54,925 bases of DNA, from the IMG/VR virus record IMGVR_UViG_3300031787_010033, positions 1-54,925 of that record, one strand, 5' to 3'. The DNA is from a virus. The position numbers were made by a program, and so were the translations under genes. Positions 13,590 through 53,063 of the stretch are shown piece after piece. The notes under the pieces are model-generated. The model did no database searches, had not been told where the DNA came from, and saw nothing but the letters and a program-made list of their open reading frames with translations. The first letter of the stretch is position 1. The number at the start of each line of letters is the position of its first letter.

Positions 13590-13618
13590 ATCTTAAACCA
13601 GAAATTGGAAAATATCAA
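13590..13618 (-). promoter_or_regulatory. Sigma70-like promoter of primase gene, near-leaderless
   Basis: Minus strand TTGATA (13618-13613), a 17-bp spacer and TAAGAT (13595-13590). The -10 ends 8 bases before the ATG at 13581, so the transcript should start at or beside the A of the ATG. Confidence 0.65.
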
Positions 13619-13620
13619 GA

Positions 13621-14265
13621 TTAAAATTTAGCAGGGATAATATCAGAGATTAAACTTTCTTCTTCTCCGTAGCATTTACCTTCTTGTGTTAGATAAAGCT
13701 CTGTCATTTTCAATCTTTGTTCTGGATTTCCGAATATTTCAATGATTGCTGGACAATCGTCTTTTGGAAAAACTCTACCATCACCACGATGGTAAGATTC
13801 TTGAAATGCTTTGAATATCGTATCTATTTCTTCACGATAAACTGGATCGGTTTCTCTAATTCCATTATCTTCTATTTCTACTGGAGCAACTTTAGTTAAA
13901 GGTATAAAAAATAAAACATCATATAATTTTAAAGTCTCTCGGATTAAAATTCTTTGTTCATCTAAAAACTTTTCAGAAATTTTTCCATTTAAATGCAACC
14001 AAGTTGAATATGCCAATACATCAACAACACATCTATCAAAAATAGCAAATTCATCTTTTGAATACTTGACTACTTCATCAACTAAACAATTTAGAATGAT
14101 TCTTTGACTTTCTTCATTTCCATCTTTGCTATGGGGAAGATTTTTTTCTTTTAAAAGTTTTCGATATTCGCTATCGACCAACTTATACATTGGCCATTTT
14201 TTTAAAAAGTCTTGTATATAAGTTGACTTTCCTATGTTGGCTGTTCCGATTACTGCAATTTTCAT
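13621..14265 (-). CDS. P-loop ATPase/kinase (AAA_28, NadR-like)
   Basis: 214 residues. The Walker A is GTANIGKST at residues 7-15. IFDRCVVDVLAYSTW is the Walker-B-like segment of NadR/AAA_28 nucleotide-binding proteins, and a DVLFFIPLTKVAP strand follows. This family phosphorylates small metabolites (such as ribosylnicotinamide) or acts as a general P-loop kinase, and is frequent in large phages. The substrate cannot be read from the sequence. It overlaps the upstream 97-residue gene by ATGA and follows it in one unit. NAD or nucleotide metabolism is inference. Confidence 0.65.
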   Translation of the reverse strand: MKIAVIGTANIGKSTYIQDFLKKWPMYKLVDSEYRKLLKEKNLPHSKDGNEESQRIILNCLVDEVVKYSKDEFAIFDRCVVDVLAYSTWLHLNGKISEKFLDEQRILIRETLKLYDVLFFIPLTKVAPVEIEDNGIRETDPVYREEIDTIFKAFQESYHRGDGRVFPKDDCPAIIEIFGNPEQRLKMTELYLTQEGKCYGEEESLISDIIPAKF

Positions 14266-14555
14266 AAATTTTCTATTTTCTCTTTTTTGATTTCAGGAAA
14301 AAATTCTACAATTTTTTTAGTGTGTTTATCGTTAAGTTCAAAATTGTTTTGTTTATCTTCGATAATATAAACATTATCAATTAAAATTTCTGGAAAATTA
14401 TTTCGAATTTTTTTTGCTAAATTAAACATGTTTAAAGAATCTTCTTTATACCAACTTGCACAAACATCAACAGAAGAACTAAACAATAAAGATTCTAAAA
14501 TTGTTGATACCTCTTCTTTGGTTAACGAATTTAAATTAAAACTTACATTATTCAT
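14262..14555 (-). CDS. Hypothetical early protein
   Basis: 97 residues, mixed alpha/beta: FNLNSLTKEEVSTILESLLF, then VCASWYKEDSLNMFNLAKKIRNNFPEILIDNVYII, then a charged C-terminus. No membrane segment or Cys pair. It directly follows a clear sigma70-like promoter with a 7-base gap to the ATG and is coupled by ATGA to the P-loop ATPase, so the two are likely an early two-gene unit. Family unknown. Confidence 0.6.
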   Translation of the reverse strand: MNNVSFNLNSLTKEEVSTILESLLFSSSVDVCASWYKEDSLNMFNLAKKIRNNFPEILIDNVYIIEDKQNNFELNDKHTKKIVEFFPEIKKEKIENL

Positions 14556-14562
14556 GTATACT

Positions 14563-14590
14563 ATATTACTAGTATTTTAGAATAAATCAA
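14563..14590 (-). promoter_or_regulatory. Sigma70-like promoter, predicted leaderless
   Basis: Minus strand TTGATT (14590-14585), exactly 16 bp, TAATAT (14568-14563), then 7 bases to the ATG at 14555. It has the same geometry as the promoters before genes 46 and the TylF-like gene. Confidence 0.7.
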
Positions 14591-14971: not shown

Positions 14972-14979
14972 TATTTATA
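14972..14979 (-). promoter_or_regulatory. Perfect T4-type late promoter (TATAAATA)
   Basis: TATAAATA reads toward the 123-residue gene and ends 5 bases before its ATG. In T4, late transcription starts about six bases downstream of this box, which places the start on the A of the ATG. Confidence 0.65.
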
Positions 14980-17001: not shown

Positions 17002-17286
17002 TTAATTGGGTTTTTTAACTTCTTTTGATTCCGATGTTTGTTTTTCTTCTTCAATTTGTTTAAGAAGAACCTCTAAGCGTTCTGCTAACGTTAAAGCTCT
17101 TTCTACCTTTGTTCCAACTATAGTGTTGGCATCACCAGCTTTAGTTAACTCGTCTTTTGTTTGTTCTAACGAGTCAATTACTCTGTTTGTGTTTGCTATA
17201 GGTGGTGCTAATTTCTTGTGTTCAGGGTTTAAACACACACATCCAGACAAAAAAGCCACACAAACCAATGCTAAAAAATAATTCAT
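17002..17286 (-). CDS. Small lipoprotein (o-spanin candidate)
   Basis: 94 residues. An N-terminal signal ends in the lipobox FLSGC at Cys16, giving a mature ~79-residue lipoprotein. The rest is helical with a coiled-coil tendency (IDSLEQTKDELTKAGDANTIVGTKVERALTLAERLEVLLKQIEEEK). It is first in the lysis cassette, before the coiled-coil membrane protein, holin-like and endolysin genes. An outer-membrane lipoprotein pairing with a coiled-coil inner-membrane protein is the spanin arrangement and implies a Gram-negative host. A late-like TGTAAATA lies 7 bases before the ATG. Confidence 0.6.
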   Translation of the reverse strand: MNYFLALVCVAFLSGCVCLNPEHKKLAPPIANTNRVIDSLEQTKDELTKAGDANTIVGTKVERALTLAERLEVLLKQIEEEKQTSESKEVKKPN

Positions 17287-17425
17287 ATATTAATATTTAC
17301 ACATGTTTTTAAAAAACCTATGAATAATTTTAAATATAAATTAAATACCTTTTACTTTATTATATTTTAAATAAAGAAGAAAACTTAAAGACGACATTCT
17401 ATTTTATCCACTTGGATATCTTTTG
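17287..17425. other. Largest intergenic gap (139 bases)
   Basis: Very AT-rich. It holds the late-like box above and a 7-bp stem (CTTTATT at 17355-17361 with AATAAAG at 17370-17376) that could weakly terminate the upstream 164-residue gene. There is also a small TATCC/GGATA stem near 17406-17419. I see no tRNA cloverleaf and no ORF. Confidence 0.4.
17294..17301 (-). promoter_or_regulatory. Possible late-type promoter of lysis cassette (TGTAAATA)
   Basis: TGTAAATA ends 7 bases before the lipoprotein ATG and heads the lysis genes. It has two mismatches to TATAAATA overall, one more than the best boxes. Confidence 0.45.
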
Positions 17426-19572: not shown

Positions 19573-20993
19573 TGGTCAATTTATCACTTATAAAAAATAA
19601 TAAGCAAGTCCAAATTAATACGGATGTATTAACCCTTAGTTTAATGAGGGAGTATTTTTCTATTTTAAATCCTGCTTATAGAAGTAATAAAAAATTTATA
19701 CCAAATCGTTTACATGCCATTACACCATCAGGTAAATTTGAATTAGGACTATTGGATCATATATGTGCATATTTAGAATCTAATCAAATTCAATATAATA
19801 TTGAAGAATCTCTTTATAAAAAATATAATAATGGTTTTAAAAATCCTACTATAGAAACATTATCAATTTCGTACAGAGACTATCAAAAAAAATCAATTGT
19901 TAATGCTTTAAAAAAAGGAAAGGGTGTGATTTCTATTCCAACTGCGGGTGGAAAAACTCTTATTATGGCAGGACTTATAAAAAGTTTTCGCAAAAACATC
20001 GAAAATGATAAAGCATTAACACTAGTAATTGTACCATCTATCCAACTAGTTGAACAAACAGCTTCGGATTTCACATCTTATGGTTTAAAAAATGTTACAA
20101 AGTGGTCAGGAAGCAACCAATTAGATATAAATGCGGAAATTATAGTTGCAGGTACACAAATTCTATTAAGCAATAAGACAGATTTATCAATTTTAGATAA
20201 CATCGAGCTATTATTAATGGACGAAACGCACGGATTAAGAAAAGGAAACGAAATAAATAAAATTTTTAATTTAATTAATACAGATTTTAAATTTGGTTTT
20301 ACTGGAACATTACCACCATCAAACATTGATCAATGGAATATTTTTGGAAAACTTGGTCCAGTTGTTTACGAGGAAAAAACATTAGATTTAAAAAACCAAG
20401 AATACGTTTCAAACTTTAAAATTGTAATTTTAAACATCCGACATTGTAATATTCCTAAGTTTAAAGTAAATACAGAGCGTCCAACCGAAGCATACAATCA
20501 AGAAATTGAATATTTAATGCACAATGAAAGAAGAAACGAAGTTATTGCCAAACTAGCCGATAGACTACCAAACAATACTATTATAATGGTGGATAGAATT
20601 GATCATGGGCTTAATTTGGAATCAAAATTAAAAGAAATTTGTGAGAAAAATAGACCAATATATTTTATTCAAGGATCAACCGACATTGAAGAAAGAGAAA
20701 ATGTAAGAAATTTAATGAATAAAAAAAACAATGTAATAGTAGTCGCTGTTTCAAAAATTTTTAGTACGGGAATCAATATTCCAAATTTACATAACATTAT
20801 TTTTGCATCTGCTGGAAAAGCAAAAATTAAAATTATGCAATCAATAGGTAGAGCATTGCGTTTACACCCAACAAAAACAATGGCTACTATTTTTGATATA
20901 GCAGATAACACGAAATATGGACAAATACATTTAAGCGAACGCATAAAACTCTATAATACAGAAAAATACAACTATGAAGAAAAAACAATCTAA
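19572..20993 (+). CDS. uvsW: UvsW-type SF2 DNA/RNA helicase
   Basis: 473 residues (T4 UvsW ~503). It has an N-terminal small domain with a helicase Q-like region (SYRDYQKKSI), Walker A PTAGGKT at 123-129, a DETH box at 217-220 and motif III GFTGTLPP at 242-249. In the C-terminal RecA lobe, VSKIFSTGINIP and the motif VI QSIGRALRLHP carry the arginine finger. UvsW unwinds branched recombination intermediates and R-loops and helps switch origin replication to recombination-dependent replication. It overlaps the uvsY-like and late-sigma genes, forming one transcription unit. Confidence 0.92.
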   Translation: MVNLSLIKNNKQVQINTDVLTLSLMREYFSILNPAYRSNKKFIPNRLHAITPSGKFELGLLDHICAYLESNQIQYNIEESLYKKYNNGFKNPTIETLSISYRDYQKKSIVNALKKGKGVISIPTAGGKTLIMAGLIKSFRKNIENDKALTLVIVPSIQLVEQTASDFTSYGLKNVTKWSGSNQLDINAEIIVAGTQILLSNKTDLSILDNIELLLMDETHGLRKGNEINKIFNLINTDFKFGFTGTLPPSNIDQWNIFGKLGPVVYEEKTLDLKNQEYVSNFKIVILNIRHCNIPKFKVNTERPTEAYNQEIEYLMHNERRNEVIAKLADRLPNNTIIMVDRIDHGLNLESKLKEICEKNRPIYFIQGSTDIEERENVRNLMNKKNNVIVVAVSKIFSTGINIPNLHNIIFASAGKAKIKIMQSIGRALRLHPTKTMATIFDIADNTKYGQIHLSERIKLYNTEKYNYEEKTI

Positions 20994-21711
20994 ATTAAAA
21001 AAAGATAACAAGACAACTAAATTAAAAAAAGATAAAAAAGTTGAAGTTATTAAACCAAAACCTTCTTTCTTTAAAAAAAGAAAGAAAAAAATTATTGATT
21101 ACGATGATTTTATTGATGAAAACGAAGATTCTTCTTTAGAAGAAGATCTAGATGAAAATATCAGTTATGCATCTTCTATGTTTGACTCTGTAAGCGACCA
21201 CGAAGAAGAAGAGGTGGAAGATGTTGAAGAAGCGGAAGAAGTTGAAGAAGAACCAGTAATTGAAAAAATAAAAAACAAAAAAAAACCGGATAAAAAAGTT
21301 TTTTACGTTGAACCTAAAAAGTTTGATGAAGAAATTGTAAAATTTTACGAATCTGGTATAATGACTAACGATTTAGCAGAAATGGTTAGTAAGATTTCAA
21401 ACAAATTAAGCTATGCTCCCAATTTTATTAATTACAGTTACAGAGAAGAAATGGTCGGAGATGGTATTATTCGCATGATGAAAGCCTTAATATCTAAAAA
21501 ATATAATAGAGAAAAGGGAACCAATCCTTTTTCATATTTTACAAGAATTGCTTTTAATGCTTTTCGAAATAGAATTAAAAAAGAAAAACATATACATGAA
21601 ACTCATGAAAAATATCGCAGAGAATTAATGTCCATGTCAGAAGGATATAGTAATTTGCTTAAAAATAATAATATTCGAATCATGAAAGAAAGAGATAGAT
21701 TGTTAGAATGA
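20974..21711 (+). CDS. 55: Late sigma factor gp55 with long charged N-terminal extension
   Basis: 245 residues (T4 gp55 has 185). The conserved core lies at ~120-215. LAEMVSKISNKLSYAPNFINYSYREEMVGDGIIRMMKAL, then NPFSYFTRIAFNAFRNRIKKEKH match the sigma region 2-like core of T4 gp55 ([36 protein letters not shown]). This factor directs host RNA polymerase to TATAAATA late promoters. The first ~110 residues are a Lys-rich block followed by a strongly acidic block (EEEEVEDVEEAEEVEEEP), absent from T4. The usual hydrophobic clamp-binding tail (SLDFLYE in T4) is not evident; the protein ends KERDRLLE. It overlaps uvsW and 47. Confidence 0.85.
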   Translation: MKKKQSKLKKDNKTTKLKKDKKVEVIKPKPSFFKKRKKKIIDYDDFIDENEDSSLEEDLDENISYASSMFDSVSDHEEEEVEDVEEAEEVEEEPVIEKIKNKKKPDKKVFYVEPKKFDEEIVKFYESGIMTNDLAEMVSKISNKLSYAPNFINYSYREEMVGDGIIRMMKALISKKYNREKGTNPFSYFTRIAFNAFRNRIKKEKHIHETHEKYRRELMSMSEGYSNLLKNNNIRIMKERDRLLE

Positions 21712-27228: not shown

Positions 27229-28186
27229 AAAAGTTTTAATAGCAGGTATCAACGGAATGGATGGTAGCCATCTAGCCGATTTTCTTCTTGATCGAGGATA
27301 TCATATCTACGGCATCCAAAAACCAGATCAGAGTATAAACGAAAATACAACCCATTTAAAAAATAAAATAACTTTTCTTAAGGGTGATTTAGCAGATCAA
27401 CCTTCAATCTTAAAATGTTTAGAAGAATCTAATCCTGATGAAGTTTATAACTTAGCAGGTAATTCATTTTTGGAAGATTGCTGGAAAAATACCGAATCCA
27501 ATGCAAACGTGACAGGTTTAGGAACATTAAGATGGTTAGAATCAATTAAAACTTTTAATAAAAAAATTAAATTTTTCCAACCTGCATCTTCAGAAATTTT
27601 TGGAAGAATAACTGAAAATCCAGCAAATGAAAATACTTCATTTTGTCCAAAAACCCAATATGGCTGCTCTAAGCTTTATGGTTACTGGTTGTGTAAAAAC
27701 TATAGAGAAAACTATAACATGTTTATTTGTAATGGCATTTTGTTTAATCACGAAAGCGAAAGAAGAAAACCAGTTTTTGTTTCTAGAAAAATAACTCAAG
27801 GAGTTGCCAAAATAAAATTAGGATTAACCGATCACATTTCTCTTGGAAATATAGAATCAAAAAGAGATTGGGGATATGCTGTCGATTTTGTTGAAGCTTT
27901 TTGGCTTATGTTACAGCACCACACCCCAGATGATTATGTTTTATCTACTGGGCTACTACACTCAATAAAAGATCTTTTAAATGTTTCTTTTAATTATGTA
28001 GGAATTAAAGATTGGGAGAAATATATTAAAATTAACAAAGATTTTTATAGACCAGCGGAAGTTGATGTTTTAATAGGAAATTCAACAAAAGCTCAAAATG
28101 TTTTAAATTGGAAACCAAAAACAAGTTTTAATGAAATGGTTATGAAAATGGTTGATAATGACTTAAAAATAGTATATAATAAATAA
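27221..28186 (+). CDS. gmd: GDP-mannose 4,6-dehydratase
   Basis: 321 residues from the ATG at 27221 (an in-frame ATG 12 bases up is possible), the usual family length. The NAD(P) Rossmann motif is GINGMDG near 9-15. The catalytic (S/T)-Y-K set is present: FQPASSEIFG near 119-128, and YGCSK with Tyr ~147 and Lys ~151. ILFNHESERR, FVSRKIT and SKRDWGYAVDFVEAFWLML are the GDP-mannose specific signatures. It makes GDP-4-keto-6-deoxy-mannose, precursor of GDP-rhamnose, GDP-fucose and perosamine. No later-step reductase or aminotransferase is seen nearby, so the host may supply it or the methyltransferase may act on the keto sugar. Confidence 0.92.
   Translation: MSKKVLIAGINGMDGSHLADFLLDRGYHIYGIQKPDQSINENTTHLKNKITFLKGDLADQPSILKCLEESNPDEVYNLAGNSFLEDCWKNTESNANVTGLGTLRWLESIKTFNKKIKFFQPASSEIFGRITENPANENTSFCPKTQYGCSKLYGYWLCKNYRENYNMFICNGILFNHESERRKPVFVSRKITQGVAKIKLGLTDHISLGNIESKRDWGYAVDFVEAFWLMLQHHTPDDYVLSTGLLHSIKDLLNVSFNYVGIKDWEKYIKINKDFYRPAEVDVLIGNSTKAQNVLNWKPKTSFNEMVMKMVDNDLKIVYNK
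28152..28180 (+). promoter_or_regulatory. Sigma70-like promoter within the end of gmd
   Basis: TTGATA, a 17-bp spacer and a perfect TATAAT, 11 bases before the ATG at 28192. It would give the methyltransferase genes separate transcription inside the island. Confidence 0.55.
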
Positions 28187-31926: not shown

Positions 31927-31954
31927 TTGATTTTTTAAAAAAATGTGAGATAAT
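31927..31954 (+). promoter_or_regulatory. Sigma70-like promoter of gene 46, predicted leaderless GTG
   Basis: TTGATT, exactly 16 bp, GATAAT, then 7 bases to the GTG at 31962. The predicted transcript starts on the G of the GTG. Confidence 0.6.
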
Positions 31955-31961
31955 ATTTTTT

Positions 31962-33758
31962 GTGAAGTTAGTCATTTTTAAGTCTTTATTTATAAAAAAT
32001 TTTCTCTCAATCGGTGAAACCCCATTAGTAATAAAATTCCAAAAGGGAATTAATTTAATAACTGGTGAAAACAAAGATATTGGTGGGAAAAATGGGATAG
32101 GAAAAAGTACCATAGCTGATGCTTTATACTGGTGTTTGTTTGGGAATACTCTAAGAGATCTTAAAAAAGAAAAAATACAACACAATCAAAATAATAAAGA
32201 GTGTAAAGTAGTTCTTAATTTTGAAATTCATACTGAAAAAGATAAAAGAACTTATGAAGTTATTCGAGTTTTAAATCCGAGTAAAATCACAATACTGTGT
32301 GATTCCAAAGATATAACACCATCAACTTTACCTAAAAGTGATGAACATATAAAATATTTGATAAGTGCAAATGAAGAAGTTTTTAATAATGCAGTTATCA
32401 TGTCTTCTAATAATACTGTGCCTTTTATGGCACAAAAAAAAGTTGATAAAAGAAAGTTTATCGAAGGTATTTTACAATTAAACGTTTTTGGAGACATGCT
32501 CCTTAAAACTAGGTCAGATTTTAATGAATGTAAAAAACAAAATGATCTTTTGAGTAACAATTTTATAAATCATCAAAAAAATTTAGAAATGCTTGAAAAA
32601 TTAAAAAATAATGACGAAAGCAATAAAAAGAATAAAATTAAAGAACTTGAACAAAAAATAGAAATCAATCAAAAACAAATAAATAAACTTGAAAATGAAA
32701 CTACAAAATCTGGAAATAATTTAAAAAACGAAATTGCTGAATTAAACGAAAAACTTAAATTTTTAGAAAAGTTTTATAAAACACAACACACTGATATTTC
32801 AAATAAAACAAAAGAAAAAATAAAAACAGAATCATCAATTGATCAAAAAAACAAAGAAAAACAAAAAATTCTTAGTAAAGGAAATATTTGCCCAACATGC
32901 AATAGAGAATACTGTAAAGAAGATATCGACCACATCCAACAAAGTGTTAAAACAATAGAAATTGAAATTGAAAATTTACAAAAAGATCTTCAAGAATTAA
33001 ACACTCAAATAGAATCTCTACAAGAAAAACTCAAAGAAATTGAAGACGGAATTAAAAAAATTGAGAATAAACAAAAAAAGACAAGTGAAGAAATAACATC
33101 TTTACGTTTAAAAGAACAGAATATTCAAACTCTTAAAAAACAAAACACTGATTATAAAAAAGATATCAATAAAATTGAAATAGAAAAATCAAATTTTGAT
33201 TCTGACATTAAAAAATGTAAAAAAGATATTGAAAATACGCAAAGTGAGTTGGAAAACATTAAAAATAAATTAAAAGTTTTAAATACCGCAAAATATATTG
33301 TATCAGAAGAAGGAATTAAAACATATATTGTCAAAAAATTAATAGATGTTTTTAATCAGCGTTTAAATTTTTATTTAAAAAAACTACAAGCACCATGCAA
33401 ATGTGAATTTGATGAAATGTTTGAAGAAACAATTTTTAACGATAAAGGAAAAGAATGCTCTTACTTTAATTTTAGTGGTGGAGAACGTAAAAGAATTGAT
33501 ATTGCAATTCTTTTTATGTTCCAAGATATTTTGCGACTTCACACTGGAACAAGTTTTTCATTAAATTTTTATGATGAACTGTTTGATTCAGCTATTGATG
33601 ATAATGGGATTGAAAAAATCATCGAGATATTAAAAAATAAAGTTGAGAAATACGAAGAATCGGTTTATATTATATCTCATAAAAATCACACAAAGGTAAA
33701 CGTTGATAATGTTTTGCTTTTAGAAAAAAGCAAAGGAGTAACACAATTAATCAATTGA
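31962..33758 (+). CDS. 46: gp46-type recombination nuclease ATPase (Rad50/SbcC-like)
   Basis: 598 residues (T4 gp46 560), starting with GTG. Walker A is GKNGIGKST at 42-50. A long heptad coiled coil spans ~200-300 and ~325-440, interrupted by a zinc hook CPTC at 310-313. The ABC signature FSGGERKRI is at 504-512 and Walker B FYDELFD is near 536-542. It drives end resection with gp47 for recombination-dependent replication. Its own promoter sits in the 38-base gap behind the glycosyltransferase gene. The separation from 47 by the sugar island is unlike T4. Confidence 0.95.
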   Translation: MKLVIFKSLFIKNFLSIGETPLVIKFQKGINLITGENKDIGGKNGIGKSTIADALYWCLFGNTLRDLKKEKIQHNQNNKECKVVLNFEIHTEKDKRTYEVIRVLNPSKITILCDSKDITPSTLPKSDEHIKYLISANEEVFNNAVIMSSNNTVPFMAQKKVDKRKFIEGILQLNVFGDMLLKTRSDFNECKKQNDLLSNNFINHQKNLEMLEKLKNNDESNKKNKIKELEQKIEINQKQINKLENETTKSGNNLKNEIAELNEKLKFLEKFYKTQHTDISNKTKEKIKTESSIDQKNKEKQKILSKGNICPTCNREYCKEDIDHIQQSVKTIEIEIENLQKDLQELNTQIESLQEKLKEIEDGIKKIENKQKKTSEEITSLRLKEQNIQTLKKQNTDYKKDINKIEIEKSNFDSDIKKCKKDIENTQSELENIKNKLKVLNTAKYIVSEEGIKTYIVKKLIDVFNQRLNFYLKKLQAPCKCEFDEMFEETIFNDKGKECSYFNFSGGERKRIDIAILFMFQDILRLHTGTSFSLNFYDELFDSAIDDNGIEKIIEILKNKVEKYEESVYIISHKNHTKVNVDNVLLLEKSKGVTQLIN

Positions 33759-33782
33759 ATTATTATATAATTCATGTAATAT
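33755..33782 (+). promoter_or_regulatory. Sigma70-like promoter, predicted leaderless
   Basis: TTGAAT, exactly 16 bp, TAATAT, then 7 bases to the ATG at 33790. The TTGAAT overlaps the TGA of gene 46. Confidence 0.65.
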
Positions 33783-34408: not shown

Positions 34409-35725
34409 ATGGCATTAAAATTAAAAGAACAAAACCCACAACCTAGTTATACTGGAAATAATTTGGTTTTTGAATATCGTCCGATGAAAACAGGTATTCC
34501 CAACCCTCCGAAAGGATTACCAATTGGAGCACCAGAATATAGCCACGTTGCGTTCAATGCCGTACATGTTCCGCAACCTCCTCCAGTAGAAATGCCAGAA
34601 ACAAAGCTTCCTAGAGCATTAAACTATTATGCTGATTATGGTGGTTGCGGTTTCTGGAGAATGATTTGGCCAGAATTTGTTTTAAATGGCTATCAAAAAA
34701 TGTGCATCAGCGGCTTAACAGCAATGGTATTAGATTTGAGATTTTACCAAGGGTTAAAAGCTATTAGAATGCAAAGACAAGCTACCCCAATTCAAAAGCA
34801 ATTCATTGCAGAACTTAAAAAAGCAAGCCCTCAAATGGGATTTAAATTACTATATGAAGTCGATGATATCGTCTTCAAAGACGACATTCCCGATTACAAT
34901 CGTTGCAAAGATGCATTCGTCCAACAAGAAATTATAGATAGTATTTTAGAAATCATTAACATGTGTGACGAAATGACAGTCACATGTAAATTCATGAAAG
35001 AATATTACCAAGAAAAAACTGGTAATAAAAAAATCACAGTCATACCAAACTATCCTCCAAAATTCTGGCTTGATAGATTTTATGATAGAGAACGTATTAT
35101 TAAACTTTTTGAAAAAAACAAAAAAAGACCGAGAATTTTGTATTCTGGTTCTGGGACGCACATCGATGTTTTGAATAGAACTGGTCTTAACGACGATTTT
35201 AAACATGTAACCGATGCTATCATTAAAGCTCGTAAAAAATTTAAATTTGTATGGAAAGGTTGCTATCCATTAGTTCTTAAACCCTATATTGATAATGGTG
35301 AAATGGAATATATTGATTGGTCCCCATTACCAGATTATCCTAAAGGATTATCTGATACTAAATGTAACGTTGCTTTTGCTTCTCTACAAAACAATACATT
35401 TAATAAATCAAAGAGTAACATTAAAATGGTAGAAGCGGGTGGTATAGGTCTTCCTGGTGCATACCAAGACATATGTACATACGAAGAAGCAGATTATAAA
35501 TTTGATTCTGGTAGTGATTTAATTGATCAATTAGAACATATCACATCCGACTTTGACCGTTACATGAGAGCATCTGATAATGCCAGAAAATTTACCGAAA
35601 ATCTTTGGTTAGAAGATCATATCAGTGAATACGAAGCGTTGTATAATACAGATTGGGGGTCTGCTGCTAGAAAAGCGATGGCACCAAATTTAATTAAAAA
35701 CAATCCAGACCAAGACACTCCTTGA
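34409..35725 (+). CDS. GT-B (GT4-like) glycosyltransferase
   Basis: 438 residues. A proline-rich N-terminal extension of ~75 residues precedes the domain start YYADYGGCGFWRMIWPEFVLNGYQKM. A LLYEVDDIVF segment, TVTCKFMKEYYQEKTGNKKITVIPNYPP, RILYSGSGTHID and KSKSNIKMVEAGGIGLPGAYQDI follow. The last carries the Glu of the donor-binding E-x7-type motif. It is a retaining GT-B transferase, acceptor unknown. The N-terminal extension (PNPPKGLPIGAPEYSH) could tether it to a virion or fibre protein. It lies between the TylF-type gene and DNA polymerase. Confidence 0.78.
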   Translation: MALKLKEQNPQPSYTGNNLVFEYRPMKTGIPNPPKGLPIGAPEYSHVAFNAVHVPQPPPVEMPETKLPRALNYYADYGGCGFWRMIWPEFVLNGYQKMCISGLTAMVLDLRFYQGLKAIRMQRQATPIQKQFIAELKKASPQMGFKLLYEVDDIVFKDDIPDYNRCKDAFVQQEIIDSILEIINMCDEMTVTCKFMKEYYQEKTGNKKITVIPNYPPKFWLDRFYDRERIIKLFEKNKKRPRILYSGSGTHIDVLNRTGLNDDFKHVTDAIIKARKKFKFVWKGCYPLVLKPYIDNGEMEYIDWSPLPDYPKGLSDTKCNVAFASLQNNTFNKSKSNIKMVEAGGIGLPGAYQDICTYEEADYKFDSGSDLIDQLEHITSDFDRYMRASDNARKFTENLWLEDHISEYEALYNTDWGSAARKAMAPNLIKNNPDQDTP

Positions 35726-35750
35726 TTTATTTCTTAAAATAGTGTAATAT
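35722..35750 (+). promoter_or_regulatory. Sigma70-like promoter of DNA polymerase gene, leaderless
   Basis: TTGATT, 17 bp, TAATAT, then 6 bases to the ATG at 35757. Confidence 0.65.
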
Positions 35751-38989: not shown

Positions 38990-39017
38990 TTGATTATTTT
39001 TCAAACAATGCTATATT
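38990..39017 (+). promoter_or_regulatory. Sigma70-like promoter upstream of uvsX unit, leaderless
   Basis: TTGATT, exactly 16 bp, TATATT, then 7 bases to the ATG at 39025. It lies in the gap after thyX. Confidence 0.65.
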
Positions 39018-40523: not shown

Positions 40524-40529
40524 TTAATA

Positions 40530-40557
40530 TTGCTTTTTATCTAAAAAGCATTATAAT
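40530..40557 (+). promoter_or_regulatory. Sigma70-like promoter of gene 41, leaderless
   Basis: TTGCTT, exactly 16 bp, perfect TATAAT, then 3 bases to a first ATG (40561) and 6 to a second (40564). The second ATG matches the usual gap. Confidence 0.55.
40531..40550. repeat. Perfect inverted repeat between uvsX and gene 41
   Basis: TGCTTTTTA and TAAAAAGCA separated by TC form a 9-bp palindrome (8-bp stem, 4-base loop), followed by TTATAATTTT. It overlaps the -35 and spacer of the gene 41 promoter. It may be an intrinsic terminator for uvsX or an operator. Confidence 0.55.
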
Positions 40558-40560
40558 TTT

Positions 40561-41970: not shown

Positions 41971-41979
41971 TCAATAGTG

Positions 41980-41987
41980 CATAAATA
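41980..41987 (+). promoter_or_regulatory. Late-type promoter octamer (CATAAATA)
   Basis: CATAAATA ends 5 bases before the ATG of the DHH phosphoesterase gene. It is the only clear late-type box on the forward strand, and sits ahead of the gp33-position, 59 and 32 genes. Confidence 0.5.
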
Positions 41988-41992
41988 TCCTT

Positions 41993-43833: not shown

Positions 43834-43847
43834 AAAAGATATAAATT

Positions 43848-44693
43848 ATGAATAACAAATACAACGAAAGCCTATTCGATTCCCTCAAGGAAGCACTTAC
43901 CACAAAAACCAATACTGATTCAGGTTTCAAAGATTTCATGAAATTTGAACCAGATAAGACATATTTGGTTCGTCTTCTTCCTAATTTGGAAGATGGTAAA
44001 AAAACAAGATTCCATTATTACCAACACATTTTTGATAGCATTCAAACTGGTAAAAAGGTTTCAGTTCTTTGTCCAAACACTTATGGTGAAAAGTGTCCAA
44101 TCGATGAATATCGTGCAAAAATGTGGGCTACCAAAAATCAAACGTTTATCGACCAAGTTAAACCATTGAAAAAAGCAGAAAAGTGGCTTTATAATGTATA
44201 TGTAATCAGTGATCCTTCAAATCCTTCAAACGAAGGACAAGTTAAAATCCTCAATGCAGGAGCACAATTACAGAAAGTCATTCAATCTGCTATTGATGGA
44301 GACGATGCAGCAGAATTTGGTTTTAGAATTTTCGATTTGTCCGAAAAAGGATGCAATCTTAGAATTAAAGTAGAAAAAAATGCTGCTGGTTATCCAAATT
44401 ACACAAGTTCTAAATTTGTGTCACCTTCACAAATTGAAGGTCTTGAGAATACCGATGAGGTATACTCTTCAATTAAAAGTTTGGATACAATCTTCCAAAG
44501 AAAAACCTATGATGAAATCAAGGAAATTTTGGATTTCCACTTTCTCGGTAAAGAAGAAGTTCAAAAAACAGAACACCACGAAGATGACTTCAAAGTTGAT
44601 GTAGTTGAATCGGAGACTACTGAAACAGTCAAGTCAGAAGACGAGCTATCTGAGCAAGATAGAAAAATGCAAGAGATCTTAAAAGACCTGTAA
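43848..44693 (+). CDS. 32: Single-stranded DNA-binding protein gp32
   Basis: 281 residues (T4 gp32 301). The core opens with YLVRLLPN. A zinc subdomain H60...C75...C83 and WLYNVYVISDPSNPSNEGQVKILNAGAQL follow (T4 [27 protein letters not shown]), then GYPNYTSSKF. An acidic tail ends ILKDL (T4 LLNDL), the part that contacts gp43, gp59 and UvsY. T4 has three Cys and one His on zinc; here the fourth ligand position reads CPID instead of CPVC, so Asp86 replaces a Cys. It coats ssDNA during replication and recombination. Strong own promoter. Confidence 0.9.
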   Translation: MNNKYNESLFDSLKEALTTKTNTDSGFKDFMKFEPDKTYLVRLLPNLEDGKKTRFHYYQHIFDSIQTGKKVSVLCPNTYGEKCPIDEYRAKMWATKNQTFIDQVKPLKKAEKWLYNVYVISDPSNPSNEGQVKILNAGAQLQKVIQSAIDGDDAAEFGFRIFDLSEKGCNLRIKVEKNAAGYPNYTSSKFVSPSQIEGLENTDEVYSSIKSLDTIFQRKTYDEIKEILDFHFLGKEEVQKTEHHEDDFKVDVVESETTETVKSEDELSEQDRKMQEILKDL

Positions 44694-44694
44694 G

Positions 44695-45159
44695 ATGGAT
44701 CCAAGATTAGAAGCTTTAGAAGCTGCTAAACTCGCAGCAATGGTTAGCTCTCAACTTAAAAAAGTTGACCAGCTAACCGTTGAGCGAAGCTCACTACCAG
44801 CTAATAAAATTAACATCCAAGAGTTTATAAATTCAGTTCAAGATCCAAATTTTCGAACTCAAAATAAATTCTCACAAGTTCCTTCTGGTTTTGCTGCTCC
44901 ACCATCAGAGGATATTATTAGGAGAATGGTTCCAGATGCACCACAGGTAATGCCACAAATATTACCAAACGTCCCACAACCCCCACAACCAGCGCAACCA
45001 CAAAAACCAGTACAGTTAGAAGCTAATATCATTAAAAAAACTACTGATAACCAATCAGTAGTAAATTTCGATAAAAACATTGAAAAGCATTTAAAAAGTA
45101 TTAGCAAAACATTAGAGAATATGCTAAAATTACTTGAAGAAAAGTATAAAAATGAGTAA
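44695..45159 (+). CDS. Hypothetical proline-rich protein between 32 and 45
   Basis: 154 residues: N-terminal helix (RLEALEAAKLAAMVSSQLKKVDQL), a central Pro/Gln-rich linker (PNVPQPPQPAQPQKPVQ), and a C-terminal coiled-coil helix (NIEKHLKSISKTLENMLKLLEEKYKNE). No family recognised. It is sandwiched between 32 and the clamp gene, overlapping the latter by eight bases, so a replisome or transcription accessory role is plausible but unproven. Confidence 0.6.
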   Translation: MDPRLEALEAAKLAAMVSSQLKKVDQLTVERSSLPANKINIQEFINSVQDPNFRTQNKFSQVPSGFAAPPSEDIIRRMVPDAPQVMPQILPNVPQPPQPAQPQKPVQLEANIIKKTTDNQSVVNFDKNIEKHLKSISKTLENMLKLLEEKYKNE

Positions 45160-45910
45160 TGAAAGACATATTCCAATTCCAAAATCAGCTTTAGAAAAAA
45201 TTTTATTCCCAGTTAATAGGTTAACTGAAAGCTGTGTTTTAAAAACTAATAAAGACAGCATTTATACTGTTTGTTCATCTATAGATAACAGCGTTATTCT
45301 ATACGCAAAAACAAAATTGCCTATAGAAATTCAAGACTTGAAGTTAAATTTGATAAACATCAAAAAGTTTTTAACAGGTTTAGAGTGTTTGGGAGAAGGT
45401 GGTAGTTTTGAACTTATACACAAAAACAATCACTTAACTTGTAAGTCTTCAAACGAAGTCACGAAAGAAAATACACATTTTAAATATCATTTAGTTGATG
45501 ACAACATTATTAAAGAATCGACAATTAATATTGAAACAATTGCTAAATTAAAGTTTAACACAATTTTTGAAATTTCGGCGCAAAAGATTAGACAAATTAT
45601 GTCAGCTTATTCGTTCGTAAATGAAGTTAATAAGATATATTTTTATACTAAAGAAGATCAGGTGTATGCTGAGATTGATGATAAAACGCTACAAAACATT
45701 GATAACGTCTCAATGCTAGTGTCGAATCAATTTAATGGTGATGCTATATCAACTCCACTTTCAATAAAAATTGAAATTTTTAAAAGTTTAGCAACATTCA
45801 AAAATAACATTACAGTAAAAATAAATAACGAATACAAAGTCTTTATATTTCAAATTAAAGACGAACAAAATACAGAATTAAAATATATAATTTCTGCCCT
45901 TGTTAAATAA
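45152..45910 (+). CDS. 45: Sliding clamp gp45
   Basis: 252 residues from the ATG at 45152, which overlaps the upstream gene by eight bases (T4 gp45 228). The beta-clamp pattern can be followed: SALEKILFPVNRLTESCVLKTNKDSIYTVCSSIDNSVILYAK (first subdomain), LNLINIKKFLTGLECLGEGGSFELIHKNNHLTCKS (clamp repeat, as in T4 AIYDLNGFLGILSLV), and a second subdomain beginning FEISAQKIRQIMSAYSFV. The trimeric ring tethers gp43 and, in T4, activates late transcription with gp55/gp33. Identity rests on fold pattern and genome position. Confidence 0.72.
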   Translation: MSNERHIPIPKSALEKILFPVNRLTESCVLKTNKDSIYTVCSSIDNSVILYAKTKLPIEIQDLKLNLINIKKFLTGLECLGEGGSFELIHKNNHLTCKSSNEVTKENTHFKYHLVDDNIIKESTINIETIAKLKFNTIFEISAQKIRQIMSAYSFVNEVNKIYFYTKEDQVYAEIDDKTLQNIDNVSMLVSNQFNGDAISTPLSIKIEIFKSLATFKNNITVKINNEYKVFIFQIKDEQNTELKYIISALVK

Positions 45911-45934
45911 CTGTGTGAAAATAAATTATAATAT

Positions 45935-46255
45935 ATGTCTAGAAACAAAATCACAACAGTTAGTTATTTCATTAAAAGATTGCGTGACAGCGGGTATGTA
46001 ACAGATAAACTGTATACAGACTATTCCAATTCAGATGCCCGATCTTGGACTGTAGTAGTAGACCCTAAAGTTTCTTCGGTGTTTATAACGTGTTTTAATA
46101 ATCACAACTATTTTGGTGAAGAATATTTTGAAATCCATGATGGAGGACAATTTATACCTGAAAATTTTAAACTTAAAACCAGTTCAATCGAAACGGTTAT
46201 TGAATATCTAGTCAAATTTAGCATCAATAATAAATCAAATACGTATAATAAGTAA
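45935..46255 (+). CDS. Conserved hypothetical protein
   Basis: 106 residues: TVSYFIKRLRDSGYVTDKLYTDYSNSDARSWTVVVDPKVSSVFITCFNN..., then EEYFEIHDGGQFIPENFKLKTSSIETVIEYL. It is an alpha/beta protein with a distinctive DARSWT and DGGQ pattern that I associate with unassigned proteins of T4-like phages. No catalytic motif. A TATAAT lies two bases upstream of the ATG, too close to be a normal promoter. Confidence 0.6.
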   Translation: MSRNKITTVSYFIKRLRDSGYVTDKLYTDYSNSDARSWTVVVDPKVSSVFITCFNNHNYFGEEYFEIHDGGQFIPENFKLKTSSIETVIEYLVKFSINNKSNTYNK

Positions 46256-46259
46256 TAAT

Positions 46260-46652
46260 ATGGCGTACTCCAAGAAGAAAAATTTACAAAATACAAACAG
46301 TCCTTCGCTTTCTTCTTTTGAAAATGTAGTAGAAAAAAAAATGACTCAAAAACAAACTGATGACTTACAAAAAAAAGTTTTTGATGCTATCAATAATTTA
46401 GAACTTCAAAAAAGTCTAGATAAGTGGTTAAAAGAAAATAAACAATCTCAACAAATTGCAATGCGAGATTTGTCTTTATTAAAATCGATTGTTACAGAAT
46501 ATTTAGATTCTTTTCTTTTGTTTGGATATAATTTAGAAGGAGAAAGAGTTATTTTACAGAGTTTTAATAAGGCAAGAGATAGAGATGCCATTATGGAATT
46601 TTTAAAAATAGTTTTTATTAAACAACAACAAGAAAATTTTCTTGATGATTAA
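46260..46652 (+). CDS. Hypothetical helical protein
   Basis: 130 residues, helical: a basic N-terminus (YSKKKNLQN), KKMTQKQTDDLQKKVFDAINNLELQKSLDKWLKEN, then MRDLSLLKSIVTEYLDSFLLFGYNLEGERVILQSFNKARDRDAIMEFLKIVFIKQQQ, ending NFLDD. The EYLDSF-x-LFGYN-x-EGERV block looks like a conserved phage family of unknown function. The short hydrophobic-acidic end could bind a partner such as the clamp, so a transcription or replication accessory role is possible. Confidence 0.55.
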   Translation: MAYSKKKNLQNTNSPSLSSFENVVEKKMTQKQTDDLQKKVFDAINNLELQKSLDKWLKENKQSQQIAMRDLSLLKSIVTEYLDSFLLFGYNLEGERVILQSFNKARDRDAIMEFLKIVFIKQQQENFLDD

Positions 46653-46654
46653 TT

Positions 46655-47704
46655 ATGATTGAATTAGATAAAGATATTTTATGTAAAAGTCCGTTGTGGA
46701 ATCCTTCAAATTTCCCAACGGGTTCCGCTAATTTTTTAAACCCAAATTATAACATTCTCCCATTCCTTTGTGACATTTTAAAAGTTGCAAATGATGAAAC
46801 TGTCGATCCTGTGATTGTAGAACCACCAGAATTCGATTTAACACCATTCACAAATTTTATTGGTTTATTAGAGGTTGGTGATCCTAGAGTATCTTTAGGC
46901 TTAACCTTGTCTGCAACATGGCTTCATTTTCTTCCAAGAGTTATTACTCAAACCGAAGTACGTCAAGCTGGTGGTGTACAGGTAATCAATAATGTCGTTT
47001 GTGATTCAGAGGGTATGCCTGTCAGAAAAGGAACTACACAAAATGTTGAATTATCGCTAGATTTATCTGGAAGAAAAGAATATAAATTTGGTGCTTTAAC
47101 AGTTCCTCCCAGTGCATGGAACATAGACGATCTTTTAAAAAGATTTACACCCGAAGACGTTAAAGACTTTGTATCCACGTTTGTACAAACTGAAAAAGAA
47201 AAACACGCCACTCAATTTACAGATTTTATTAGCAAGTGGTTTCTTTCAAACCCACAATGGAAAGTAAGTTTATCATTTTATAAAATGACAAGAAATTATT
47301 TTGTTGTATTAGACTTAAGAAATGCATCAAATGTTTCAACACAAAGAATCTATTTGAAATATTATGATGATGTAATGTTAAAAGTAGCAAAAAATTTAAA
47401 TGTTAAAAATATAGATGTATATAATAATATGCCATTTGGTAATGTTGGTATTATGAAAGGTTTTTCTGAACAAACTTTCGATTACAAAAAAATAATGGCT
47501 ACAGAAAAATCACAAAAGGATCATTATGATTATATTATTAAAAATTTATCAATAGATCCAAGAAATGCAGCGTTATCATATAATACTTTATTTACCGCTA
47601 ATAGTGCTAATGTTGTTAACGCGATGGCTAACATGTTTTTACAACAAGCCAGAACACAAATTACAACAAATACCGCACCTGTTTCCAGTATTACTGTTAA
47701 TTAA
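46655..47704 (+). CDS. Hypothetical protein, possibly baseplate-related
   Basis: 349 residues, soluble alpha/beta: KSPLWNPSNFPTGSANFLNPNYNILPFLCDILK, then a central beta region (WLHFLPRVITQTEVRQAGGVQVINNVVCD, LSLDLSGRKEYKFGALTVPPSAWNIDDLLKRF), and a helical C-terminus ending QQARTQITTNTAP. No family recognised. It is last in the forward block and converges with its stop overlapping that of the spike gene, which hints only weakly at a tail role. Confidence 0.55.
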   Translation: MIELDKDILCKSPLWNPSNFPTGSANFLNPNYNILPFLCDILKVANDETVDPVIVEPPEFDLTPFTNFIGLLEVGDPRVSLGLTLSATWLHFLPRVITQTEVRQAGGVQVINNVVCDSEGMPVRKGTTQNVELSLDLSGRKEYKFGALTVPPSAWNIDDLLKRFTPEDVKDFVSTFVQTEKEKHATQFTDFISKWFLSNPQWKVSLSFYKMTRNYFVVLDLRNASNVSTQRIYLKYYDDVMLKVAKNLNVKNIDVYNNMPFGNVGIMKGFSEQTFDYKKIMATEKSQKDHYDYIIKNLSIDPRNAALSYNTLFTANSANVVNAMANMFLQQARTQITTNTAPVSSITVN

Positions 47705-49815: not shown

Positions 49816-49823
49816 TATTTATT
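49816..49823 (-). promoter_or_regulatory. Late-type promoter octamer (AATAAATA)
   Basis: AATAAATA ends 6 bases before the ATG of the spike gene at 49809, in the gap after the hub gene. Confidence 0.5.
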
Positions 49824-51353: not shown

Positions 51354-52993
51354 TTTCCATCAAAAGGATTTAAACTAGTAATAAATGAATTTACATCAGC
51401 AGGAATTTTTCTAACACCTTCTCCAATTTGTCCTATTGATGGACTAATTGATCTAAAGTTTTCTTGGACATTTTTATAAATGAATGATGGATCTAGTGGA
51501 TGTCCATAAATATCTTCTCTATTACTATTATAAACATTTGGTCCAAGTGAGGCTGCAATAGGAGGAAATGACCCACCATATCTTTGATATATTTCACCAG
51601 CTTTTGAAAGAATGTTGCCTAATGGAGTAATTGCTGCATAACCAGGTCCAAACTTATTTACTAAAGCACCTATCAAATTTCCTTGAAGTGCCGTGGCAAC
51701 CCAAGCATAACCATAGTTAGAAAGTTGATCAGCTAAAAACCCACCAGGATCCGTACCAATTTGATTTACGGTGTCAACAATTTGTTGAACTTCTGGTGGC
51801 AAATATGCCATAGCTGTTGTAAATGGGTTTGTAACAAAATTTGATGCAATATTAACGAAATTCTGAACACTATTTAAAATATTAGTGAAAGACCCTGACA
51901 TGTTAAACAGTGATGTAAAAAAGTTAATATCATCTAGCAATACTTGCAATGTGTCTAATATTAAACATAACAAATCTAATGGTATTATTTCTTCAATAAC
52001 TTCTAACAATTTTCTTTGTATTTGAACTATAATACCATTAATCCAAGCATAAATTTTTTGAATATAAAGAATAACTCCGTTGTAAATGTCGTTGATAATA
52101 CTTTGGAAAGCACCAATAACACCATTAATTCCTGCAACTATTCTTGAAATAGAACCAAATGCTCCTTTTGGCATAGAAAGATAAGAACGAGTGCGTATAA
52201 CATTACAAAACTTTTCAATATTATTGACAGTATCAGGATGAATTTTGTTTAAGAGCTTTTCTACTAAACTTGGTGTAGTTTTTTCTGGACCAGTAATAGG
52301 ATTGTTTTCCATTCGATCTGCATTAACTTCGGTAACACCAAGTTTACCAATATCATCAAAGCAACCTTTTTGCCAAGCAGGGGTTTTTTGTAATGCTTCT
52401 AATAAACCTGGTTGTTTAGGAAGATTTAAAAAATCTGCAATAAATGCCTCATCTATAATATAAGCATCTTGTCCTTGTGTAGCAGACCTTAAAGTTTCAT
52501 TATCAAACCCATAAACTAAAAGTGATAATAAAAGATAATATTTATTAACATTCAAATCGCTGAATTGATGTTTAATTTTTGCTAATTCTCCACCAAAAAT
52601 ATAAGGATATAATGTTAGATTTGTTTTTTTCTCAAGTTCTTTAATTTCTTGTGATGTTGGTTCACTATATTCACCACTTAACATAGAAGGTGATCTTCCT
52701 GTAGGAGTTCCAAATCTTACTTGATTTGAAGCTGCTTGTGTTGTTATTCGTTTAGATGCTGCTCCTGCTGCTGTGGCAGCTTTTTGCACAGCAGGAACAC
52801 TAGAAGCTAATGTTTGAAAAACATTACTAGTTCCTCCACCAACAGTAATACCAGTTGGAGCATTTGTTTGGCCGACTGTAGTTCTTCCAGAAGTTGAACT
52901 CGATGAAAATGGATTATAACCATTAGCGATTTGATCGGCGGTTGCTGGACTAACCCCCTGAAATAAAGAATTAGTGTTTGAATTGGTTGCCAT
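51350..52993 (-). CDS. Hydrophobic baseplate/tape-like structural protein
   Basis: 547 residues. The first ~110 residues are Ser/Thr/Ala-rich and disordered-looking. A globular part follows (YPYIFGGELAKIKHQFSDLNVNKYYLLLSLLVYGFDNETLRSATQ). A long run of amphipathic to hydrophobic helices fills ~265-400 (IIVQIQRKLLEVIEEIIPLDLLCLILDTLQVLL and neighbours). The C-terminus ends PSIGQIGEGVRKIPADVNSFI. Size and hydrophobic helices are compatible with a tape-measure/hub protein like T4 gp29 (590), but there is no diagnostic motif. It is directly upstream of the gp5-like hub, with ATGA coupling. Structural role likely, identity open. Confidence 0.55.
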   Translation of the reverse strand: MATNSNTNSLFQGVSPATADQIANGYNPFSSSSTSGRTTVGQTNAPTGITVGGGTSNVFQTLASSVPAVQKAATAAGAASKRITTQAASNQVRFGTPTGRSPSMLSGEYSEPTSQEIKELEKKTNLTLYPYIFGGELAKIKHQFSDLNVNKYYLLLSLLVYGFDNETLRSATQGQDAYIIDEAFIADFLNLPKQPGLLEALQKTPAWQKGCFDDIGKLGVTEVNADRMENNPITGPEKTTPSLVEKLLNKIHPDTVNNIEKFCNVIRTRSYLSMPKGAFGSISRIVAGINGVIGAFQSIINDIYNGVILYIQKIYAWINGIIVQIQRKLLEVIEEIIPLDLLCLILDTLQVLLDDINFFTSLFNMSGSFTNILNSVQNFVNIASNFVTNPFTTAMAYLPPEVQQIVDTVNQIGTDPGGFLADQLSNYGYAWVATALQGNLIGALVNKFGPGYAAITPLGNILSKAGEIYQRYGGSFPPIAASLGPNVYNSNREDIYGHPLDPSFIYKNVQENFRSISPSIGQIGEGVRKIPADVNSFITSLNPFDGK

Positions 52994-53024
52994 ATAAAAA
53001 CTTACTCAGATAACTTATTTTTTC

Positions 53025-53052
53025 TTGATAATTTTATTTTTAAATGTATACT
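53025..53052 (+). promoter_or_regulatory. Sigma70-like promoter of dNMP kinase-like gene
   Basis: TTGATA, exactly 16 bp, TATACT, 11 bases before the ATG at 53064. It lies in the 70-base gap between divergent genes. Confidence 0.6.
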
Positions 53053-53063
53053 ATATATTTAGT

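Follow-up and report, generated by a model that had tools for sequence, protein, structure and literature searches.

The 54,925-nt window analysed here (IMG/VR record IMGVR_UViG_3300031787_010033, positions 1 to 54,925) carries sigma70-type promoters that abut the start codons of several replication genes, which raises the question of whether these genes are expressed from leaderless mRNAs and how far such an arrangement extends in the phage lineage concerned. Judged from sequence comparison, leaderless mRNAs are very probably formed across the lineage at many gene or operon heads, both early-type and late. The restriction to key replication genes implied by the earlier note proved too narrow, since a late-type box stands before many other starts.

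The phage and its relatives

PHROG matches identify the T4-type genes 43, 41, uvsX, 46/47, 32, and 55 in the window, whose gp43 compares at 31% with that of Pelagibacter phage Mosig. At least 570 IMG/VR stretches encode a gp43 relative, and 80 of them were kept, at 40 to 100% identity; upstream signals were examined in 57 relatives. Gene starts were taken from our own caller, which uses the coding score only and no upstream motif. It missed some small early-region genes of G001, a 211-kb record of the same phage as the window, and placed the starts of the primase gene and gene 32 downstream. Rows in which the upstream region runs off the contig were excluded.

Sigma70-type sites at gene starts

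By direct reading, we confirmed a TTGA-type box, a 16- or 17-bp spacer, and a -10 box adjoining the start codon at the 97-aa gene, gene 46, the TylF-type gene, gene 43, and the gene preceding uvsX (Table 1). The layout is present before the primase gene as well, at an ambiguous start (TTG 13590, ATG 13581, or ATG 13533). In the 323-aa open reading frame, the best PHROG match starts at residue 11, i.e., upstream of 13533, and the site is missing from the gene-call list because the caller chose a downstream start. At gene 41, the proposed 16-bp spacer and TATAAT box are found, but the upstream box is TTGCTT instead of TTGA and only 3 nt separate the -10 box from the first ATG. The glycosyltransferase gene at 34409, proposed as a weak case, retains a -10-like box without a TTG box in the window copy, both boxes being present in 11 of 22 orthologs. 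Among the further genes before which gaps of 11 to 16 nt had been described, 28192 does have a sigma70-like site with a gap of 11, but a late box, ATAAATA, overlaps this site and leaves 6 nt to the ATG. The gap before 53064 is 9 nt, with an 18-bp spacer.

Table 1. Promoter-like sites and the late sigma factor gene in the window. Gap, nucleotides between box end and start codon or gene; orthologs, copies with the site.
Feature	Position	Strand	Sequence or match	Gap	Orthologs
Sigma70-type, 97-aa gene	14563..14590	-	TTGATT-N16-TAATAT	7 (ATG 14555)	1/2
Sigma70-type, primase	13590..13618	-	TTGATA-N17-TAAGAT	8 (ATG 13581)	
Sigma70-type, gene 46	31927..31954	+	TTGATT-N16-GATAAT	7 (GTG 31962)	15/27 (strict two-box)
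Sigma70-type, TylF-type gene	33755..33782	+	TTGAAT-N16-TAATAT	7 (ATG 33790)	
Sigma70-type, gene 43 (DNA polymerase)	35722..35750	+	TTGATT-N17-TAATAT	6 (ATG 35757)	17/24
Sigma70-type, pre-uvsX gene	38990..39017	+	TTGATT-N16-TATATT	7 (ATG 39025)	20/28
Promoter, gene 41	40530..40557	+	TTGCTT-N16-TATAAT	3 (ATG 40561), 6 (ATG 40564)	6/18
Promoter, 53064 gene (deoxynucleoside monophosphate kinase family)	53025..53054	+	TTGATA-N18-TACTAT	9	4/5
Late-type box	41982..41987	+	TAAATA	5 (ATG 41993)	exact NATAAATA 0/14
Late-type box (overlaps sigma70-like site)	28180..28185	+	TAAATA	6 (ATG 28192)	
Late-type box, 702-aa gene	49816..49821	-	TAAATA	6 (ATG 49809)	NATAAATA 2/3
Late-type box, tail fibre gene 1739-3367	3376..3381	-	TAAATA	8	
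Late-type box, gene 5665-6735	6743..6748	-	TAAATA	7	
Late-type box, gene 8660-9541	9548..9553	-	TAAGTA	6	
Late-type box	14972..14977	-	TAAATA	5 (ATG 14966)	
Late-type box, gene 17002-17286	17294..17299	-	TAAATA	7	
gp55-type late sigma factor	20974..21711	+	phrog_234, E 6.5e-26; T4/P-SSM4/Mosig gp55 profile, E 5.9e-20		

For counting, a two-box site was defined as TTG[AC], 15 to 18 bp, and TAnnnT, with the -10 box ending 5 to 8 nt before the start codon. Such sites occur at 8 of 65 starts in the window, compared with 0.33 in dinucleotide shuffles, so that the scan of gene starts proposed in the earlier note comes out far above shuffles. The same holds for G001 (23/212 versus 1.1), a 195-kb relative (20/200 versus 1.45), and seven other records (27/271 versus 1.6). 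Across four records, in which the window and G001 represent one phage and are not independent, the motif precedes 52 of 562 called starts (9.3%) and 156 of 26,965 other ATG/GTG codons (0.58%). When only TAnnnT at gap 6 was fixed (84 of 630 starts, each at least 20 nt from its neighbour), TTG[AC] was found at a spacer of 16 bp in 44 cases and 17 bp in 15, as had been described, and in 0 to 4 cases at each other spacer from 12 to 22. With TTG alone fixed at -34, TAtaaT appears at -12 to -7 (n = 84; base frequencies T.71, A.80, T.48, A.49, A.70, T.86).

The sites recur at the same genes in relatives (Table 1), including uvsX (13/18 orthologs) and, more weakly, gene 41; the TylF-type gene has no ortholog in the set compared. 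None of 77 orthologs of eight control genes between 41993 and 47704 has one (0/73 without gene 32, whose start the caller misplaces). The motif is also seen in some orthologs of the genes at 23508 (2/8), 24290 (1/8), 38339 (2/5), 22754 (2/3), and 13621 (1/4). That the sites arise by chance in AT-rich DNA (30% GC, with -10-like words common) from which good cases were picked has a negligible probability: a plain sigma70 scan of 28000-46000 indeed gives no excess (80 promoter-like sites versus 97.8 in shuffles), but the excess appears only over a narrow range of distances from start codons and with spacers of 16 to 17 bp, at the same genes in several divergent records, a T4-like phage of 26% GC lacks such a peak (two-box sites 1 versus 1.4 expected, late boxes 0 versus 1.6), and shuffles, non-start ATG/GTG codons, spacer, gap, and ortholog controls, and this AT-richer phage together rule it out. 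The two-box signal is one of position relative to start codons, not of the total number of promoter-like sites.

Gene 43 offers the deepest comparison. Both boxes are present in 41 of 52 nonredundant upstream regions, the window included, down to 41% protein identity, whereas shuffles pass 0.87 times on average and 5 times at most. The start codon is fixed by an in-frame stop 0 to 12 nt upstream in 10 of 12 copies checked. Among the 11 regions that miss the strict test is that of L139, which has a Shine-Dalgarno (SD) sequence in place of the two-box site and offers a chance to compare the SD and leaderless modes; an SD tetramer occurs in 3 of the 52. In T4, an RNA hairpin operator lies upstream of gene 43. 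We considered a lineage-wide counterpart and rejected it, as the inverted repeats lie at varying places and follow no rule (score of at least 8 in 12 of 74 upstream regions; shuffles 5.3, sd 2.4).

Late-type boxes and gp55

A second element, the late box TAA[AG]TA, peaks 5 to 7 nt before the start codon, at 32 to 43 of about 200 starts per record in four large records, where shuffles predict about 3 per record. TAAGTAT, ATAAGTA, TAAATAT, and ATAAATA are four of the top five 7-mers at gaps 4 to 7 (words seen there at least 5 times, 941 starts). The exact box is kept in 3 of 6 reciprocal ortholog pairs; late boxes are thus a secure genome-wide signal that can hardly be tested gene by gene. The gp55-type sigma factor encoded at 20974-21711 would be the expected reader of these boxes. 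For the gp45 sliding clamp, a T4/P-SSM4/Mosig profile returned nothing convincing (best E 0.02). In T4, the late box starts at -13, according to an extract of PMC2988020, so an 8-bp box with a gap of 5 would put +1 on the A of the ATG.

Shine-Dalgarno words and translation signals

The earlier note saw no SD sequence in its cases with gaps of 6 to 8 bases, which is correct. We rejected the idea that this is a peculiarity of those genes, as the large records have no SD enrichment throughout, their SD tetramers being at background (e.g., 15 versus 18.4 expected). In two small records, SD words reach 0.158 of 19 starts (G004; 0.053 in a control stretch) and 0.179 of 28 starts (G005; 0.071). No match to a phage-encoded IF3 or S1 domain was found in any of eight records. 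Between 47 and 87 starts per large record have neither a box nor a close upstream gene.

The AT-rich upstream words might instead be non-SD translation-initiation signals on ordinary leaders. The background level of SD words would suit this explanation, as would the A-rich upstream of starts closely behind another gene (A at -3, 0.58). It is nevertheless very improbable, since the -10 box goes together with a TTG[AC] 16 to 17 bp further up and the eight control genes, neighbouring and necessarily translated, lack the site in all 77 orthologs.

Proposed mechanism

According to the reading we favour, replication and recombination genes, presumably early, would be transcribed from sigma70-type promoters, TTGA-N16/17-TAnnnT, with about 6 nt between the -10 hexamer and the start codon, and late genes from gp55-type promoters whose TAA[AG]TA box ends 5 to 7 nt before that codon. 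In both classes, normal +1 selection would fall on or beside the first base of the start codon; from a -10 box ending 5 to 8 nt upstream, transcription is predicted to begin on the start codon itself or no more than about 3 nt away. Ribosomes would load on the 5'-terminal AUG (or GUG) without SD help, translational coupling would carry them on to downstream genes that follow closely, and the host would presumably translate such messages well.

A closer alternative, which we hold to be rather improbable, is that the promoters are real but produce very short leaders of about 1 to 10 nt, used by SD-independent initiation in the host, so that the messages are not strictly leaderless. Sites with spacers of 15 to 18 bp fall at gaps 5, 6, 7, 8, and 9 in 8, 61, 27, 26, and 17 cases (overlaps possible), and at gaps 6, 7, and 8 in 9, 7, and 8 cases among relatives of 57 to 68% identity; some late boxes lie at gaps of 8 to 12. 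Since gaps of 7 to 9 are common, short leaders of 1 to 3 nt may occur. Against this alternative, the biggest classes, gap 6 for sigma70-type sites and 5 to 7 for late boxes, are the canonical distances.

In bacteria, leaderless initiation is often regarded as a minor route (compare PMC3160421). This diverse lineage apparently depends on it to express DNA polymerase, recombinase, and late genes, and it would offer a natural setting in which to learn how well leaderless mRNAs can sustain a lytic cycle. We see even odds that the whole T4-like lineage shifted its sigma70-type and gp55-type promoters against the start codon and gave up SD-led initiation. If so, its uncultured host would use leaderless and coupled initiation as main translation routes, and the phage's own ribosomal protein bS21 might tune such translation. 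Searches bearing on the host gave four weak matches in a scan of genome contigs, all archaeal MAGs (23 to 29%), no match of the tmRNA or bS21 in a phage collection, and none of an outer-membrane-like protein in plasmids. As a practical rule, promoters help to fix gene starts here, where SD-based callers get no signal.

Comparison with other T4-like phages and known leaderless systems

Parts of six T4-like phages (T4, Pelagibacter phage Mosig, P-SSM4, Caulobacter Cr30, Campylobacter NCTC12673, and C48C1) served as controls. Unlike the large records of this lineage, all six are enriched in SD sequences (in T4, 72 tetramers versus 17.5 expected). Each has 0 or 1 late boxes at 4 to 8 nt, with no peak there, and in five the late-box peak lies at 15 to 35 nt; of the 20 late boxes found within 60 nt of a start in the examined 100 kb of T4, 14 are 21 to 29 nt upstream. 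A few two-box sites occur at short distance in Mosig (5 versus 1.6), P-SSM4 (3 versus 0.7), and C48C1 (3 versus 0.7). The TATA-type box of T4 late promoters, which depend on gp55/gp33/gp45, is often ATAAATA (PMC2988020, extract), as in this lineage, which also encodes a gp55 homologue. Here, however, TAAGTA is common beside TAAATA, and the box mostly ends 5 to 7 nt before the start.

The literature surveyed, covered mostly at title level and largely outside subscription papers, yielded no description of T4-like phages with a leaderless arrangement. The message of lambda cI, with its 5'-terminal AUG made from a phage promoter, is a leaderless message of a single phage gene. It is an isolated case, whereas this lineage has a genome-wide layout of two promoter classes. 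According to an aside in PMC5312081, phage transcripts "are often leaderless," and the AR9 leaders given there measure 26 to 491 nt.

The closest parallel is with the "TA-led" genes of Actinobacteria and Deinococcus-Thermus, described in the available parts of PMC3160421 and PMC12340547 as a class apart from SD-led genes, with TAnnnT about 6 to 7 bp before the open reading frame, or about 12 bp when measured from its first T; for leaderless genes of Deinococcus radiodurans, the distance between the -10 motif and the open reading frame is about 6 to 7 bp (PMC12340547). TAnnnT about 10 to 12 bp before the start codon is likewise found above chance here. The TA-led systems are bacterial genomes, whereas the present lineage consists of T4-like phages. 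It has a clear TTGA box 16 to 17 bp further up and a second box, of the phage late type, in the same position, and SD words stay at background level throughout its large records.

Phage, gene content, and relatives

The window (54.9 kb, 30% GC) is from a T4-like phage that, according to PHROG matches, encodes DNA polymerase (43), SbcC-like (46) and SbcD-like (47) proteins, a UvsX-like recombinase, a DnaB-like helicase (41), primase, ssDNA-binding protein (32), a DNA helicase, and thymidylate synthase; a late sigma factor was also matched, as were genes for tail fibre and endolysin. Its gp43 is 100% identical to that of G001, a 211-kb IMG/VR record of the same phage. Relatives of gp43 are encoded by at least 570 stretches, of which 80, with 40 to 100% identity, were retained; the first named phage among the matches listed is Pelagibacter phage Mosig (31%).

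In G001 there are 20 tRNA genes, along with one tmRNA gene. The ribosomal protein bS21 is located near the anti-Shine-Dalgarno sequence, and phage-encoded bS21 is of interest for this reason; it was found in 3 of 12 records, each of them one of the four with a length of about 200 kb. Three kinds of purine- and nucleotide-related proteins listed below might be relevant to modified purines in phage DNA, the adenylosuccinate-synthase/PurZ-like ones scoring under family cut-offs.

Coordinates of individual features (G and L handles denote related records or stretches)
Location	Feature	Remark
G001:70276-70491; G010:21050-21274; G017 about 9618-9755	bS21
L024:5196-5653 (-)	tmRNA gene of G001	predicted tag ADEEMLLAA
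L024:824-1765; L025:690-1703; L033:9618-10631; L025:16721-18700	GMP reductase; short adenylosuccinate-synthase/PurZ-like proteins; B12-dependent ribonucleotide reductase
G001:74084-74121; G010:23981-24018	two-box site	boxes and spacer identical in two phages; arms GACAATATT/AATATTGTC cover both boxes
L006, L012, L015, L075, L079, L082, L085, L090, L111, L113, L114, L135	inverted repeats upstream of gene 43

Sigma70-type promoters at leaderless distance

An earlier note on this DNA had proposed that many replication genes follow a sigma70-type promoter in leaderless position, with no Shine-Dalgarno (SD) sequence. The sites that it named are found in the window on direct reading, with corrections: the gene 41 site is present, but its first box reads TTGCTT and the gap of 6 nt holds for the second ATG; at 34409, the copy in the window has no TTG box; and at 28192, the "longer gap" conceals a late box that ends 6 nt before the start. 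When the starts in our own gene calls were scanned for two-box sites (TTG[AC], 15- to 18-bp spacer, TAnnnT) ending 5 to 8 nt before the start codon, every set stood well above dinucleotide shuffles: 8/65 starts versus 0.33 in the window, 23/212 versus 1.1 in G001, 20/200 versus 1.45 in the 195-kb relative G010, and 27/271 versus 1.6 in seven other records.

Of 1,126 pooled nonredundant starts, 630 lie 20 nt or more from the neighbour, and 84 of these have TAnnnT at gap 6. Above it, TTG[AC] occurs at a spacer of 16 bp in 44 cases and of 17 bp in 15; each remaining spacer length between 12 and 22 bp accounts for 0 to 4. Two-box counts (spacers 15 to 18) at gaps 5, 6, 7, 8, and 9 are 8, 61, 27, 26, and 17, overlaps being possible, and fixing TTG alone at -34 (n = 84) makes TAtaaT emerge at -12 to -7. 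The motif precedes 52/562 called starts versus 156/26,965 other ATG/GTG codons, a 16-fold enrichment in a set where the window and G001 share content. Between 28000 and 46000, the total of sigma70-like sites shows no excess; what is non-random is their placement, not their number.

The site recurs before gene 43, where both boxes (spacer 15 to 18, gap 5 to 9) are present in 41 of 52 nonredundant upstreams (shuffle mean 0.87, maximum 5), as far out as L145 (41% gp43 identity), and the geometry is undisturbed when the start codon switches between ATG and GTG. Several of the 11 failing upstreams, judged by eye, retain TTGA or a -10-like word. In L139 (an 8-kb record; 44% gp43 identity), AAGGAG precedes gene 43 and the two-box site is missing; it is possibly an SD-using neighbour of the lineage. 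Ortholog counts show the motif to be tied to particular genes: 46 (15/27), 34409 (11/22), 43 (17/24), the gene before uvsX (20/28), uvsX (13/18), 41 (6/18), and 53064 (4/5). Eight genes lying from 41993 to 47704 yielded it in 0/77 orthologs (0/73 on leaving out gene 32, for which our gene caller set the start wrongly), and it turned up in a few relatives for 22754 (2/3), 23508 (2/8), 24290 (1/8), 38339 (2/5), 13621 (1/4), and 14262, 19174, and 6746 (1/2 each). Grouped by gp43 identity, the gap 5 to 8 peak is 25 versus 0.7 (57 to 68%), 18 versus 1.0 (50 to 53%), 15 versus 1.2 (46 to 49%), and 14 versus 0.7 (40 to 45%); the five remoter relatives L016 to L020 (27 to 29%) have no two-box site at that gap. 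Three of these, L018, L019, and L020, also have few SD words (0.06 to 0.11 of starts) and are perhaps another non-SD group.

Some gene-43 promoters carry inverted repeats across the -10 region or spacer (12/74 versus 5.3 in shuffles), which are perhaps operators. The site with arms GACAATATT/AATATTGTC, where our gene calls place no start at the adjoining ATG, is perhaps a repressor site.

Late boxes at the same distance

The late box NATAAATA peaks at gap 5 to 6, with 36 cases versus 1.6 expected (748 starts, window and G001 both counted). In a ranking of 7-mers with at least five occurrences at gap 4 to 7 (941 starts, six records), TAAGTAT, ATAAGTA, TAAATAT, and ATAAATA are among the top five. 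TAA[AG]TA at gap 4 to 8 is likewise in excess in the records tabulated below, in G006 (16/91 versus 1.8 expected), and in the window (8/65 versus 1.1). The exact box is kept in 3 of the 6 reciprocal ortholog pairs usable for gene-by-gene recurrence. A sigma factor of the matching type is among the phage's genes. The T4 late box, as described in PMC2988020, spans 8 bp about one turn before the start site and begins at -13; a box of this kind ending 5 nt before the ATG would put +1 on the A.

Proposed mode of expression

We infer that sigma70 RNA polymerase initiates early-type genes on or beside the start codon and that, once gp55 is made, late genes initiate likewise from TAARTA boxes. The message would then begin with AUG/GUG, or a few bases from it, and be translated without an SD sequence; genes close behind another gene would probably be reached by coupling. 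Of this picture, the box positions, their recurrence, and the lack of SD enrichment are direct observations, and the +1 positions, the timing, leaderless translation, coupling, and the participating polymerases are our inferences.

Starts accounted for in four large records (shuffles give about 7 each for either promoter)
Record	TAA[AG]TA at gap 4-8 (expected)	Either promoter at leaderless distance	Same, starts not <=15 nt behind a co-directional upstream gene	Neither explanation
G001	40/212 (3.2)	68/212	56/111	55
G010	43/200 (3.0)	67/199	53/103	50
G016	32/208 (3.4)	56/208	46/133	87
G017	36/192 (3.0)	62/191	52/99	47

Comparison with known systems

SD tetramers are enriched in stretches of all six control phages, namely, T4 (72 versus 17.5), Mosig (44 versus 13.6), P-SSM4 (23 versus 9.6), Cr30 (30 versus 6.9), Campylobacter phage NCTC12673 (26% GC; 42 versus 7.5), and C48C1 (26 versus 10.3), whereas SD words in the lineage stay near shuffle level (15 versus 18.4, 14 versus 17.2, 23 versus 22.2, 21 versus 17.9, and 6 versus 7.8; window, 3 versus 5.1). 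They are somewhat above the control stretch in the small records G004 (0.158 versus 0.053; 19 starts) and G005 (0.179 versus 0.071; 28 starts). Late boxes in the controls are in excess 15 to 35 nt upstream, except in C48C1 (2 versus 1.9), and number 0 to 1 per phage at 4 to 8 nt. Mosig (L060-L061; 5 versus 1.6), P-SSM4 (L064; 3 versus 0.7), and C48C1 (L173; 3 versus 0.7) each show a small number of two-box sites at this leaderless distance; the arrangement may therefore extend somewhat beyond this lineage.

Leaderless genes marked by TAnnnT near the start are described chiefly from Actinobacteria and Deinococcus-Thermus (PMC3160421), with the D. radiodurans motif lying about 6 to 7 bp before the ORF (PMC12340547), and our literature search found no T4-like lineage with both sigma70-type and gp55-type promoters so placed.
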